This document shows, piece by piece, positions 12,111 through 19,850 of a stretch of DNA of 41,514 nt (the first letter of the stretch is position 1; every line of letters starts with the position of its first letter). Position numbers and translations under genes: made by a program. The stretch is from Bacteroidetes bacterium CG18_big_fil_WC_8_21_14_2_50_41_14. Lineage in GTDB: Bacteria > Bacteroidota > Bacteroidia > Bacteroidales > F082. The notes beneath the pieces are model-generated. The model had not been told where the DNA came from. It saw only the letters and a list, made by a program, of their open reading frames with translations, and ran no database searches. Location: the NCBI GenBank assembly GCA_002771745.1, contig PCUL01000441.1, forward strand, positions 1,683 to 43,196, in the 5' to 3' direction.

Positions 12111-13340
12111 TTATTCCCAGAACTTCAGAAAATATGACTCCGATGTCCTGTGTTCATAACCATGGCGTGAATTATCAAATTCTGCTATGTTGAACAAGTA
12201 TTCTTTTGAAAAATCGGTGAATTGAATATCGTCATCATAACCTGTATTTAATTTTCTGGCAAATTCGGCAGTCCATTTTCCATTGTTCCAAACAGCACCA
12301 AATAACAGATCGGCGCGGCTACCATCCGTTTGACGAAGAATTCGTTCCGGTATAACTGCAGTCAGAGCTGTGTATTTTGACCAATAGGTTGAGGCGTCAG
12401 CATCGCTAACTCCATTTGTGGCATCACCCACGCATTCACCTGCATCAATTTCAGCTTGAGTAAGTGTCATTGCATCAGCATAATCAAGTGGATTTTTTTC
12501 CATATATTTCGGACGGCTTTTATCGCCAATACGATTATGAGAATAAGCACTGGTTCCGGCATCGCCATAACGTCCGCCATCTTCTCCATTTGTAGCATCA
12601 TCAGCCCAAACATCTACATATTTATCATCCGCGTAACCAATCATAGAAAATGTACCTCCTGTAACTTCAAAAGTAGCAGGGTCGATTGTTAGGTTTAAAC
12701 CGGTAGCTGATGTGTAAGCAGTACCTCGTGCAGCCTTACTATGCCACATATCAGCACGTCCGCTTGTAAGCCAAGCATCGTCAACAATACCGTGTGAACT
12801 TACATGAGGATCGGTGTCTGTTGGATAATACATGTGGCATTTAGTCATACAGCCGCCTGTATTATATGGCGAACCTGAAATGTCACCCATAGGCCAGAAG
12901 AAAGACATACGATCTTCTGATTGCTCCGTATGCGCATTTCTATTCCAAACTGTACCATCCCATACCCATGAGTTACCTCGTGTGAAGCTGGCAGTAGGAT
13001 CATTCCATTCAGTTAAAAAGTAAATGTTGTCACCGCTGTAAACTGTTTTAACAGTAACAGAAATATCACTGTTATAGGCATGACATGATGTGCAATTGCC
13101 AATTTGCGATGGGTCGTTAGGAGGATTGTTTGTCTCACCCAATGCAACCACTAAAGCCGGAACATCCGTCCATAAATTATCTACCACGCCATCAACTGCC
13201 GGGGAGCTACTGACTTTCACAGCATTAAGTTTTGTTAAATCATAATCTGGTGGTGAATCCGGTTTGTCCTTTTTACAACTTGAAGTAAATGTCAAAATTG
13301 CAAAAGCAATAAAAACAAAAAATAAATTGAATTTTTTCAT
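12111..13340 (-). CDS. haem-binding EB_dh-type lipoprotein (CxxCH and CxxxCH)
   Basis: 409 residues. The lipoprotein signal ends at TSSC (Cys22). A c-type haem motif CTSCH lies near residues 83-87 and a second, atypical CMTKCH (CxxxCH) near 163-168. The segment DMWHSKAAR (about 196-204) resembles the DxWHWKAAR motif of ethylbenzene-dehydrogenase/DMSO-reductase haem-binding (EB_dh, PF09459) proteins, where it helps ligate haem. The fold is DOMON-like and beta-rich. It is probably exported and lipid-anchored, with a role in electron transfer or redox sensing. No reductase or oxidoreductase gene is adjacent. A NarL-type regulator and its kinase lie immediately upstream on the same strand, separated by a promoter and tandem boxes. 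Confidence 0.75.
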   Translation of the reverse strand: MKKFNLFFVFIAFAILTFTSSCKKDKPDSPPDYDLTKLNAVKVSSSPAVDGVVDNLWTDVPALVVALGETNNPPNDPSQIGNCTSCHAYNSDISVTVKTVYSGDNIYFLTEWNDPTASFTRGNSWVWDGTVWNRNAHTEQSEDRMSFFWPMGDISGSPYNTGGCMTKCHMYYPTDTDPHVSSHGIVDDAWLTSGRADMWHSKAARGTAYTSATGLNLTIDPATFEVTGGTFSMIGYADDKYVDVWADDATNGEDGGRYGDAGTSAYSHNRIGDKSRPKYMEKNPLDYADAMTLTQAEIDAGECVGDATNGVSDADASTYWSKYTALTAVIPERILRQTDGSRADLLFGAVWNNGKWTAEFARKLNTGYDDDIQFTDFSKEYLFNIAEFDNSRHGYEHRTSESYFLKFWE

Positions 13341-13395
13341 GTTAAATTATTTAGTTATTTAAAAAGTTTAATCTATCTTACTCATTAACTATTGG

Positions 13396-13427
13396 CAAAA
13401 TTAAATGGAAGCAACTCATCAGACAAT
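13396..13427 (-). promoter_or_regulatory. promoter of the haem lipoprotein gene
   Basis: On the minus strand ATTG (13424-13427), a 20-bp spacer and TAATTTTG (13396-13403) match the Bacteroidota promoter. Predicted transcription start is near 13389, with a leader of about 50 bases. Confidence 0.5.
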
Positions 13428-13436
13428 CGCAATATA

Positions 13437-13473
13437 TACGTAATTTTATGTACCATAAACTACGTAGTTTTAT
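13437..13473 (-). promoter_or_regulatory. tandem operator boxes TACGTA(A/G)TTTTAT
   Basis: TACGTAATTTTAT (13437-13449) and TACGTAGTTTTAT (13461-13473) are 13-bp direct repeats with one mismatch, 24 bp apart. The first is part of a 7-2-7 inverted repeat TACGTAA-TT-TTATGTA (13437-13452), the geometry of NarL sites. The second lies in a perfect 14-bp palindrome AAACTACGTAGTTT (13457-13470). Both are at about -50 to -85 from the predicted lipoprotein start site, the place for an activator. The likely binder is the NarL-like regulator encoded next door, by inference. Confidence 0.5.
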
Positions 13474-13527
13474 AAATGAAATAGGGCAGTAACCAGGACT
13501 AAACCACCAGTAGATGAGTTGGATAAT

Positions 13528-14181
13528 CTAATCGAAGTGGATTAAATTGTTTTTAGAAGCATATTTTAGCAGGCCAACCACAGTGTTAACCTTAAGTTTC
13601 TGCATCAGGTTTCTACGATGAGTTTCAACCGTTCTTAAACTGATATGCAGTTCATCGGCTATTTCCTGGTTGTTTCTGTCATCTGATATTTTTTGCAAAA
13701 TATCGATCTCTCTTCGAGTCAAATGAATCGAATCCTGTTCATGGATGGCAGAATTTTGATTCAGTACTTTATCAATCATTTTTTCAGACAACTCTCCACT
13801 CAAATAACGCTTATGCCTCAAAACAGTTTCAATGGCGTTATAAAACTCCTCTTTCTTCGAGTTTTTTATTAGATATCCCATTGCACCTGCTTTTAATGCC
13901 TGAGATACATATTCATTATCATCGTGTTGGGTAAGGGCTATGATTTTTGTTTCAGGCAATTTTTTATTTAATATTTTTATGGCTTCAATACCGTTTAGTA
14001 TAGGCATGGAGATATCCATAAATATTACGTCAGGCGAAAGACTTAGTGCTTTATCAACTGCTTCCTGGCCATTAAATGCATGGCCAACGATTTTGAAACT
14101 TTTATTCAATCTTAAGATATCTTCAATTCCATTATGAATTATTTCATGATCATCAGCAATTAGAATATTTATTGTTTCCAT
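13528..14181 (-). CDS. NarL/FixJ-type response regulator
   Basis: About 217 residues from the ATG at 14181 (METINILIADDHE). The longer frame adds six residues and would overlap the kinase. The receiver domain has the acidic pocket DDHE, the phosphorylation site in DVIFMDISMP (about residue 56) and a conserved lysine in IKNSKK. A LuxR-type helix-turn-helix covers about 150-210 (LTRREIDIL, then IADELHISLRTVETHRRNL). It starts 2 bp after the kinase stop codon, so the two are one operon and almost certainly cognate partners. The next gene on the strand is the haem lipoprotein, whose upstream boxes are its most plausible target. Confidence 0.9.
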   Translation of the reverse strand: METINILIADDHEIIHNGIEDILRLNKSFKIVGHAFNGQEAVDKALSLSPDVIFMDISMPILNGIEAIKILNKKLPETKIIALTQHDDNEYVSQALKAGAMGYLIKNSKKEEFYNAIETVLRHKRYLSGELSEKMIDKVLNQNSAIHEQDSIHLTRREIDILQKISDDRNNQEIADELHISLRTVETHRRNLMQKLKVNTVVGLLKYASKNNLIHFD

Positions 14182-14183
14182 GT

Positions 14184-15959
14184 TTAGGTATTTTTGCAAG
14201 GTATTTCAATGATCAATTCAGTTCCCTTTCCTTGTTTTGAGTCAATAGTAAATGTGCCGCTATAGGTGGCAATTCTTTCCCGAATACTCATTAAACCGAT
14301 TCCCCTTCCGGATTGTTCATCACTTATAATGTCTGTATCAAAACCAATACCATTATCTTCTATAACAAGAGTTATCTGTTCATCCGTTTTGAACAGCTGA
14401 AAAGTAGCCTTGCTTGCTTTTGCATGTTTAACAATATTATTTAGCGATTCCTGGCATATTCTGTAAATTGTTTTTTCAAGTTTAGGATCAATTCGTCCTT
14501 CAAAATCATACGCATTGAATATGAATAATGTATTATTCAACTGGTTGGCTCGCTCAATAAGATTTCGCACAGCAGAAATAAGCCCGAAATCTTTCAAAGC
14601 CAAAGGAATTAGATTGTGCGACAGAATTCTTGTTTCCAGTATGGCTGCGTCAATCTGATTTTGAATATTTTGTATAGTATCAGTATCATACCGGCTTTCA
14701 TTTAATTTTTGAATTGAATAGGAAATAGATGTGAGCATTTGGCCCAGGCCATCATGGATATCCGTTGCTATATGCATTCGTTCCTGTTCTTGTGCCTCAT
14801 TTATAGCAATTACCCTATCCTTTCTGATTCGCTCAATTTTTTCCTCATTTGCTTTTTGTTCAGTTAAATCATGTACTACCAAAACCAAACCATCCATTGT
14901 ATTATCGGTGTTTTTAAGTATTGTACAAGTAATAAAGACAGGAATTGGTAATCTGCTTTTTGAAAACATTTGTGAATGTTTCCTTATAAAAAAAGCTAAT
15001 TGTTCTAAATCGATCTTTTCCGTTACCGGCTGCGGATGATTTTGAGAATCTTTATTAAAAAGGAACATAAGGGGCTTACCAATAAGTTCTGTTTCATTAT
15101 ATCCCAGTAATTTTAAAGTCGCATTGTTAATTGAACGAATATTACATTGTCTGTCAGTTACTACAAGTGCGCCAAACAAATTGTCGATAATACTTTTAAG
15201 ATACACCTCCGAAACAGTTGTCCTGTCGATAATGTCTAACATTGAGTTGAATGAGACCGCCAATCGCCTGAATTCTTCCTGAGAATCTATACTGACCCTA
15301 AAATTTCTGTTGCCAGCACTAATACTATTTGTTGCGGTAACCAAAGCCCGAATAGGTCTGGTGAAATTTCTTGCATACCAGATACCTCCAAATAGAATAA
15401 TCACCATAGCTGTGATGCCAACAAAAACGATTGTAAATGATCCATGCAAAATTGCTGTCCGACTTTTTCTTTCGTAATAATCAATTTCATTCTGAGTTTC
15501 CAAAATAAGAACATCTGCGATATTCAATCCTTTTGTAATTTCTGTTCGCATACTATCAAAAATAAGATCTTTATCCCTGGCCTTTAATAAGCCTTTGATA
15601 ATATGATCCATACCAACAGTTAAAGTATCTAATTCTGCCAGCAAATTTAAGTTATGTGCTTTGGTTATAACATAATGACACTCCTCAATACTTTCAAGCA
15701 ATTCCTGCGACAAATCCATTAATTTATTTAATGATATTGCCTCTTCAGAATAATTTAAATTACTAAAAACAATTTCCATTTTACTTAATGACATTTTTGT
15801 TTCCTGCAAAGTATTTAATTCGTGATATTCAAGTATAAGCTTGTCGGTGTTGTCTCTAAAAAGTATTGTAATAATCCGAACTCCTGCTATAATAATGATA
15901 ATCAGTAAAAGCATTGCTGTTACTGTTAATGTTAGTTTTCTTTGTAATGATAAATTCAT
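14184..15959 (-). CDS. HisKA_3 sensor kinase with HAMP and PAS domains
   Basis: 591 residues. Transmembrane segments at about 8-33 and 172-196 enclose a helical periplasmic sensor region of some 140 residues. A HAMP linker (about 198-250) and a PAS domain (about 260-370) follow. The HisKA_3 dimerisation domain has HDGLGQ near 405-410, and a HATPase domain ends with the glycine-rich GRGIGLMSIRERI. This is the NarX/DegS layout. The sensor region contains no cysteine pair or CxxCH, so no haem is bound by it directly. The PAS domain could hold a cofactor. It precedes its regulator by 2 bp. The start is the first ATG before the first membrane segment. Confidence 0.9.
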   Translation of the reverse strand: MNLSLQRKLTLTVTAMLLLIIIIIAGVRIITILFRDNTDKLILEYHELNTLQETKMSLSKMEIVFSNLNYSEEAISLNKLMDLSQELLESIEECHYVITKAHNLNLLAELDTLTVGMDHIIKGLLKARDKDLIFDSMRTEITKGLNIADVLILETQNEIDYYERKSRTAILHGSFTIVFVGITAMVIILFGGIWYARNFTRPIRALVTATNSISAGNRNFRVSIDSQEEFRRLAVSFNSMLDIIDRTTVSEVYLKSIIDNLFGALVVTDRQCNIRSINNATLKLLGYNETELIGKPLMFLFNKDSQNHPQPVTEKIDLEQLAFFIRKHSQMFSKSRLPIPVFITCTILKNTDNTMDGLVLVVHDLTEQKANEEKIERIRKDRVIAINEAQEQERMHIATDIHDGLGQMLTSISYSIQKLNESRYDTDTIQNIQNQIDAAILETRILSHNLIPLALKDFGLISAVRNLIERANQLNNTLFIFNAYDFEGRIDPKLEKTIYRICQESLNNIVKHAKASKATFQLFKTDEQITLVIEDNGIGFDTDIISDEQSGRGIGLMSIRERIATYSGTFTIDSKQGKGTELIIEIPCKNT

Positions 15960-19820: not shown

Positions 19821-19850
19821 TTTGATACCAGCTCATCTGTATTAATTTTG
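19821..19850 (+). promoter_or_regulatory. promoter of the ECF sigma gene
   Basis: TTTG (19821-19824), an 18-bp spacer and TAATTTTG (19843-19850) match the housekeeping promoter, 40 bp upstream of the GTG start. The sigma gene would thus be transcribed by the primary sigma factor. Confidence 0.6.

Follow-up and report, generated by a model that had tools for sequence, protein, structure and literature searches.

A Conserved Tandem Operator and Promoter Predicted Between a NarL-Type Response Regulator Gene and a Haem Lipoprotein Gene in Uncultured Bacteroidota

Genes at the Locus

The window, that is, the whole stretch of 41,514 nucleotides analysed here, belongs to a genome assembly of 4.49 Mb in 466 contigs and carries neighbouring genes for a sensor histidine kinase, a response regulator, and a lipoprotein with an EB_dh haem-binding domain (Table 1). 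The regulator combines a receiver domain with a GerE helix-turn-helix domain, both Pfam matches lying above the cut-off, and is a member of the NarL/FixJ (LuxR-type) response regulators; it is one of 14 proteins with a GerE match in this genome. In the kinase, a predicted four-helix sensor between two membrane helices is followed by HAMP, PAS, HisKA_3 and HATPase domains. The translated lipoprotein displays, by eye, a lipoprotein signal and one CXXCH motif (CTSCH). Its gene and that of the regulator run in the same direction and are separated by an intergenic gap of 187 bp, inside which the boxes described below are found. Neither EB_dh nor the full-length kinase was detected in the four congeners searched, and the kinase–regulator–EB_dh module (12111-15959 of the window) may be gained or lost as one unit.

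TABLE 1. Genes, boxes and predicted regulatory elements of the locus, in window coordinates.
Feature	Position	Strand	Remarks
EB_dh haem-binding-domain lipoprotein gene (predicted target)	12111-13340	-	409 aa; PF09459 90.4 bits (cut-off 33.3)
-7 element, TAATTTTG	13396-13403	-	20 bp after TTG
-33 element, TTG	13424-13426	-	directly after site 2
Putative operator site 2, TACGTATATATTGCGA	13427-13442	-	predicted centre -43.5; abuts -33 element
Spacer between sites, CATAAAAT	13443-13450	-	8 bp; 6-8 bp in 17 aligned promoters
Putative operator site 1, TACGTAGTTTATGGTA	13451-13466	-	7-2-7, TAC-N10-GTA; predicted centre -67.5
Box 1 of the earlier note, TACGTAATTTTAT	13437-13449	+	
Box 2 of the earlier note, TACGTAGTTTTAT	13461-13473	+	
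NarL-type response regulator gene	13528-14181	-	217 aa; PF00072 96.1 bits, PF00196 64.4 bits
Sensor histidine kinase gene	14184-15959	-	591 aa; directly upstream of regulator gene

Two Boxes and a Predicted Promoter

An earlier note on this DNA had drawn attention to two 13-bp direct repeats in the gap, and both are present, with one mismatch and a start-to-start distance of 24 bp. The 7-2-7 inverted repeat and the 14-bp palindrome that it described are also found: the plus-strand 16-mer at 13437-13452 pairs at six of seven arm positions (by eye), and AAACTACGTAGTTT at 13457-13470 is a perfect palindrome. A single 13-mer with up to two mismatches occurs at chance level (five matches against 3.24 expected); thus, it is the pair and not the box that is significant. 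The arrangement TACGTA-N18-TACGTA occurs once in the window and in none of 100 dinucleotide shuffles, and TACGTA-N16..18-TACGTA is absent from 20,000 first-order Markov 187-mers. Across the genome, TACGTA-N16..20-TACGTA is confined to a single place, reported on both strands owing to the self-complementary pattern.

As TACGTA equals its own reverse complement, both strands allow a reading of the repeat. The minus-strand register is fixed by conservation, by the abutting TTG and by the direction of the target gene, and the 24-bp repeat distance then runs from the TAC of site 1 to the TAC of site 2. The boxes are therefore real, but the putative functional register is 13466-13427 on the minus strand and includes bases that had been left unmarked. 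Instead of one 7-2-7 repeat plus a separate palindrome, the conserved form consists of two tandem 16-bp elements on the gene strand, and the sites are predicted to span about -75 to -36 rather than -85 to -50.

On the gene (minus) strand, the layout in the window is [TAC-N10-GTA] N8 [TAC-N13] TTG N20 TAATTTTG. Site 1 reads TACGTAG-TT-TATGGTA and fits a 7-2-7 inverted repeat with TAC...GTA as its outer letters. In site 2, the left half is strong and the right half degenerate, without GTA, such that only the left half fits the NarL-type form. The accessible text of one source gives the NarL heptamer consensus as TACYYMT (PMC4886647). The heptamers TACGTAG, TACCATA and TACGTAT agree with it at five, four and six of seven positions, respectively (by eye). 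The description of the boxes as unlike this consensus thus holds for the inner bases (TACGTAN/TACCATA here), whereas site 1 retains the NarL-type outer letters TAC...GTA and the 7-2-7 dimensions.

The promoter that had been predicted before the lipoprotein gene is borne out at the level of sequence. Bacteroidota sigma-ABfr promoters, in the accessible parts of the sources, have TAnnTTTG at -7 and TTG or TTTG near -33 (PMC7366714; PMC9723704). The stretch TTG-N20-TAATTTTG at 13426-13396 matches this consensus, is kept in relatives and is a predicted promoter of this class. With TAnnTTTG set at -12 to -5, as in the available text of PMC9723704, the transcription start is predicted near 13391.

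Conservation of the Layout

A contig scan returned ten EB_dh orthologues with 59-78% identity, five in Bacteroidota assemblies (L012-L015 and L017) and five in Methanococcoides (L016 and L018-L021). The operator layout lies upstream of four of the ten (L012, L013, L014 and L017), and L012 retains a 30-bp core exactly. The same kinase and regulator precede EB_dh in L012, L013 and L017; the check proposed in the earlier note, namely conserved boxes at the same offset in relatives with the regulator beside EB_dh, thus gave a positive result in all three. L014 also has the layout before EB_dh, though its kinase–regulator system is on another contig of its genome. In L015 and the five Methanococcoides loci, a matrix derived from eight site-1 sequences gave no match above 12.0 bits; the eight themselves score 19.9-24.2 bits. 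L015 has an OmpR-type regulator and another kinase; no composite (the two sites joined to the promoter) stands before its EB_dh gene, and a profile search found no full-length sensor kinase in its genome. For this reason, the operator appears to go with the regulator, not with the target.

A loose composite regex gave one match each in L015 (3351) and L016 (3610), neither before EB_dh, and none in L018-L021; these and a match at window position 19841 (minus strand), likewise not before EB_dh, were taken as background. When 100 relatives and 395 genomes of the class were searched for EB_dh, two distant homologues (30 and 33% identity) were found besides that of the window. The composite is absent from both loci, one of which (L022) has a 14.7-bit site inside the gene, and no new EB_dh loci appeared among 99 relatives of G492, the genome of L013. 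As a separate observation, the EB_dh lipoproteins of the Methanococcoides archaea, which are 59-64% identical to that of the window, stand without the operator layout, and EB_dh transfer between Bacteroidota and archaea is possible.

Ten promoters were aligned first on the gene strand, and 17 in all. The ten have in common [TAC-N10-GTA], with TAA or TGC in two cases, a spacer of 6-8 bp, and then [TAC-N13]. TTG follows site 2 in nine of ten, with TTT in its place before chrA. By a regex for TTG and TAnnTTT-like boxes, eight of the ten have the -33/-7 pair with 20 bp between; by eye, TAACCTTG stands at 20 bp in the promoter of a ferredoxin-like gene, and in that of chrA the TTT is followed after 19 bp by TATTTTTA. 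The conserved bases are defined by nine primary promoters, each from a different genome and beside the regulator gene (the window, L012, L013, L017 and L066-L070). In site 1, TA, GT and the final GGTA are invariant and C is kept in 8/9, with 11 of 16 positions shared by eight or nine promoters. Site 2 keeps TAC and the last base A in all nine, as is also true of TTG (15/17 overall, TTT in the other two) and TANNTTT. Outside these elements, the best-kept base is a C just before site 1 (8/9), and no position of the 20-bp spacer between TTG and TAnnTTT exceeds 6/9.

Loci Chosen by the Kinase Sensor

The 250-aa sensor of the window kinase was used as the query in a protein search of 100 relatives. 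Besides the window, five genomes matched at E 1e-15 or better with 27-32% identity, and none of the four congeners did. Regions of 14.9-18.0 kb around the five kinase loci were examined. By alignment, the kinase is followed by a NarL-type regulator in all five, that of L068 being interrupted by an N run of the assembly. The loose regex had been written from the ten previously aligned promoters before it was applied to these loci. It matched once per locus, always in the gap that follows the regulator gene. The gene beyond this gap codes for an 8-CXXCH cytochrome in 5/5, with a type IX secretion tail in 4/5. In L069, the match lies inside the mechanically extended 5' end of the cytochrome ORF, and the cytochrome likely starts at a later ATG (MRKFLQ...).

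Three off-target places in about 125 kb, comprising the window and eight kinase-free EB_dh loci, put a chance match in a given gap at about 1 in 100. On account of this low background, five matches in five expected gaps are far from chance. The five loci suggest that the target changed while the operator stayed with the regulator, and this test is a more independent step than the strict-pattern count described below.

Co-occurrence of Composite and Kinase

For wider searches, the strict pattern GGTA-N6..8-TAC-N13-TTG-N20-TANNTTT was used. Among 100 relatives it occurs at 16 places in 14 genomes, and the reversed pattern at 10 places. All six kinase-bearing relatives have it once each, at the expected place; of the 94 without the kinase, eight have it, at 10 places. 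The corresponding Fisher value of 2.5e-6 is overstated, since these loci share ancestry; in addition, most of the sites were already known when the pattern was drawn up. A triplet that the pattern leaves free, 10 nt ahead of GTA, sets the two groups apart: the six composites from kinase genomes have TAC five times and TAA once, whereas only three of the ten from other relatives have TAC. Among the five Bacteroidota EB_dh genomes, the pattern was found in G491, G492, G493 and G495 and was not found in G494. A strict search of six genomes gave nine places against four for the reversed control. Because reversed controls are not far below the real counts, single genome-wide strict matches mean little. 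Genome-wide searches with a lone 13-mer or 16-mer are uninformative, since in the window's genome the reversed controls matched more often (49 vs 10 and 18 vs 2).

A nine-row sensor profile was then run against 23 genomes, made up of the five Bacteroidota EB_dh genomes, the six kinase-bearing relatives, the four congeners and the eight relatives with unexplained composites. The full-length sensor was detected in ten, and all ten have the strict composite, a result that is partly built in, since most of these promoters were known before the pattern was set; nine of the ten had also supplied profile rows, only G493 being new. The full-length kinase was absent, by the same search, from G494, the four congeners and the eight genomes with unexplained composites. 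Four of these 13 (G002, G004, G045 and G092) gave partial matches to the C-terminal part of the sensor profile only.

Three composites from kinase-free genomes deserve mention on their own account. In G005 (contig C64, L134:6311), TACCCTTAAGAGGGTA N6 TACCGTCCTGATTGTA TTG N20 TACTTTTG has the same layout with other inner bases and is found 84 bp downstream of another LuxR-type regulator gene. In G061 (contig C3, L132:9659, minus strand), TACCCAATTTATGGTA N7 TACAACGAATGTGGTA TTG N20 TACTTTTG begins 107 bp before a sulphite-reductase-flavoprotein-like gene, and no NarL-type regulator was recognised by eye in the 19-kb stretch. The third, in G078 (contig C58, L133:7741, minus strand), also with other inner bases, precedes a cysteine-synthase-like gene by about 590 bp, and no ORF of 60 aa is listed for the interval. 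As a lead only, these cases suggest that other regulators may use the layout too.

Other Target Genes

In two genomes with EB_dh orthologues, G492 and G493, the composite precedes electron-transfer genes. G492 has the promoter form before four consecutive genes, for EB_dh, a chromate-transporter family protein (the weakest case), a 4Fe-4S membrane protein and a cytochrome c lipoprotein, two of which the strict pattern matches. G493, the genome of L014, has it before EB_dh on contig C74 and, on contig C205, before an 8-CXXCH cytochrome and a cytochrome c lipoprotein; two further promoter copies occur in this genome. The kinase and regulator of G493 are on contig C13, separate from the composites on C74 and C205; therefore, the operator is independent of an adjoining regulator gene. 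L017 (5697-8384) encodes a single protein of 895 aa that joins an EB_dh domain, a multihaem cytochrome and a type IX secretion tail, which suggests that EB_dh lipoproteins and 8-CXXCH cytochromes may act together.

With a single strict composite, the window's own genome does not allow a regulon to be demonstrated. It also encodes a homologue (39-43%) of the cytochrome lipoprotein from L013, and the locus of this homologue yielded no site of at least 8 bits. Among the window's best 15 matrix sites, down to 7.1 bits, none directly precedes the kinase gene, and hence autoregulation by way of this motif is not indicated. Among the 13 other GerE loci of the genome, L109 and L111 have a loose tandem TAC-N10-GTA match.

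Regulator and Sensor Proteins

The recognition helix ISLRT(V/T)ETHRRN is found in 9/9 regulators, with SLRTVETHRRN in the window. The window regulator aligns nearly end to end with the structures of VraR and NarL. At the base-contact positions of NarL, which we take to be K188, V189 and K192, it has E, T and R, and inner bases other than those of NarL fit these substitutions. Its best sequence match is of the VraR/LiaR type (PDB 5hev; full-length, E 8e-45). VraR/LiaR systems respond to cell-envelope stress, and they differ from the system of the window in kinase type and role.

The sensor was modelled as a four-helix bundle (mean pLDDT 76, pTM 0.54) from a four-row alignment. Its three top structural matches are NarQ fragments, the best at E 1.3e-3, with TM-scores of 0.48-0.57 and 14-15% identity. 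No structural match reached E 0.001, and a chemoreceptor (8c5v), in fourth place, has a higher TM-score; the likeness to the NarQ fold is therefore a lead only. HAMP is present in 9/9 kinases. With its HisKA_3 core, HAMP domain and predicted four-helix sensor, the window kinase resembles E. coli NarX and NarQ as far as the model goes, but has PAS in place of their GAF-like domain. A nitrate-binding P-box motif, G-x-x-R, is described for sensor helix 1 of NarX/NarQ in the available text of PMC8199190. This motif was not found around helix 1 in any of the nine kinases, and no Arg is invariant in the sensor; instead, E44, E47, H102, E154 and E158 are invariant in the nine sensors. A cation, a metal or haem would be our guess at the ligand.

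A Predicted Promoter Switch and Its Alternatives

The architecture, its conservation and its co-occurrence with the kinase are supported by sequence, and together they make it likely that the boxes belong to an activating operator of the adjacent NarL-type regulator, a promoter switch for two dimers. The membrane kinase, through its four-helix sensor, would phosphorylate the regulator, and two regulator dimers would then bind side by side at the 7-2-7-type elements, centred at about -67.5 and -43.5. The inner dimer would touch the -33 TTG, and together the dimers would bring RNA polymerase to the haem lipoprotein gene at its TTG-N20-TAnnTTTG promoter. The operator claim of the earlier note is thus supported by conservation and co-occurrence and corrected in register and offset; that the regulator binds, that phosphorylation is needed and that the outcome is activation rather than repression, we infer.

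Repression of the lipoprotein promoter by the same regulator is an unlikely reading. Site 2 touches the -33 element, where a dimer could block polymerase. Against this, the -7 element and the predicted start both lie outside the two sites, and in-line dimers that end exactly at -33 resemble the activator geometry of ogt and yeaR in the accessible parts of the literature. Slightly less probable still is that a different transcription factor encoded elsewhere binds the boxes, with the regulator gene adjacent on account of the target only. Regulator binding is deduced from sequence, and the three kinase-free composites (G005, G061 and G078) retain TAC-N10-GTA, as such a factor would allow. It would not readily account for a composite in 10/10 kinase-bearing genomes though their targets differ (EB_dh or 8-CXXCH cytochromes), nor for its absence before EB_dh of L015, whose genome is without the kinase, and TAC-N10-GTA is a known site shape of the NarL family in the source text available.

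The inverted repeat might instead form an RNA hairpin, which could, for example, terminate the regulator transcript or act within a 5' UTR; TACGTAGTTTATG can pair with CATAAAATTACGTA in the window (-8.8 kcal/mol), and two of nine stretches have folds clearly more stable than those of shuffles (z -2.61 in L017, z -2.45 in L070). This reading is very improbable, as the window itself has z -0.68, seven of the nine stretches, the window included, lie between z -1.49 and +0.98, no T run follows the element, which is upstream of the predicted promoter, and the TAC/GTA letters are kept where the pairing is not. That a functionless AT-rich repeat arose by chance, which the frequency of the single 13-mer alone would permit, is refuted for practical purposes by spacing, composite and conservation.

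Relation to Known Systems and Significance

The closest parallel to the predicted activating operator is E. coli ogt, where, in the accessible text, NarL requires a tandem pair of 7-2-7 sites, centred at -44.5 and -77.5 with one next to -35, and where activation is also obtained from one engineered site at -67.5 (PMC7419079). Both cases pair a NarL-family regulator, which in the window aligns with NarL itself, with two 7-2-7 elements arranged in tandem, of which the downstream one adjoins the -35/-33 element. The predicted centres differ (-67.5/-43.5 here vs -77.5/-44.5), as do the centre-to-centre distance (22-24 bp vs 33 bp for ogt in the available text), the promoter, which here is of the Bacteroidota class TTG-N20-TAnnTTTG, and the targets, which are haem proteins and not ogt. 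Among the papers listed by full-text searches of a largely open-access literature set, no operator of a NarL-type regulator from Bacteroidota was evident. Tandem NarL-family sites are known in kind; what appears new is their sequence and spacing here, together with the class of promoter and the set of targets.

The switch probably acts as an activating circuit in respiration or electron export, since in relatives it precedes genes for multihaem cytochromes and for other proteins of electron transfer. A broader idea, hinted at by the different inner bases of the three kinase-free composites, is more speculative and perhaps doubtful: [TAC-N10-GTA] N6-8 [TAC-N13] TTG N20 TAnnTTTG could serve NarL-type regulators across Bacteroidota as a common template, in which the outer TAC/GTA and the distances are fixed by regulator–polymerase geometry and the inner bases give the identity of the regulator. 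Here they would be the code of one sensor family that is without the nitrate motif, has a conserved Glu/His cluster and commands multihaem cytochromes.

For a two-component system of uncultured Bacteroidota, an operator, a promoter and a start are thereby predicted at base resolution, and the system seems to control electron-transfer haem proteins. With its fixed geometry, the pattern may be used to look for targets of the system in other genomes, and as a way into what this kinase senses in place of nitrate.
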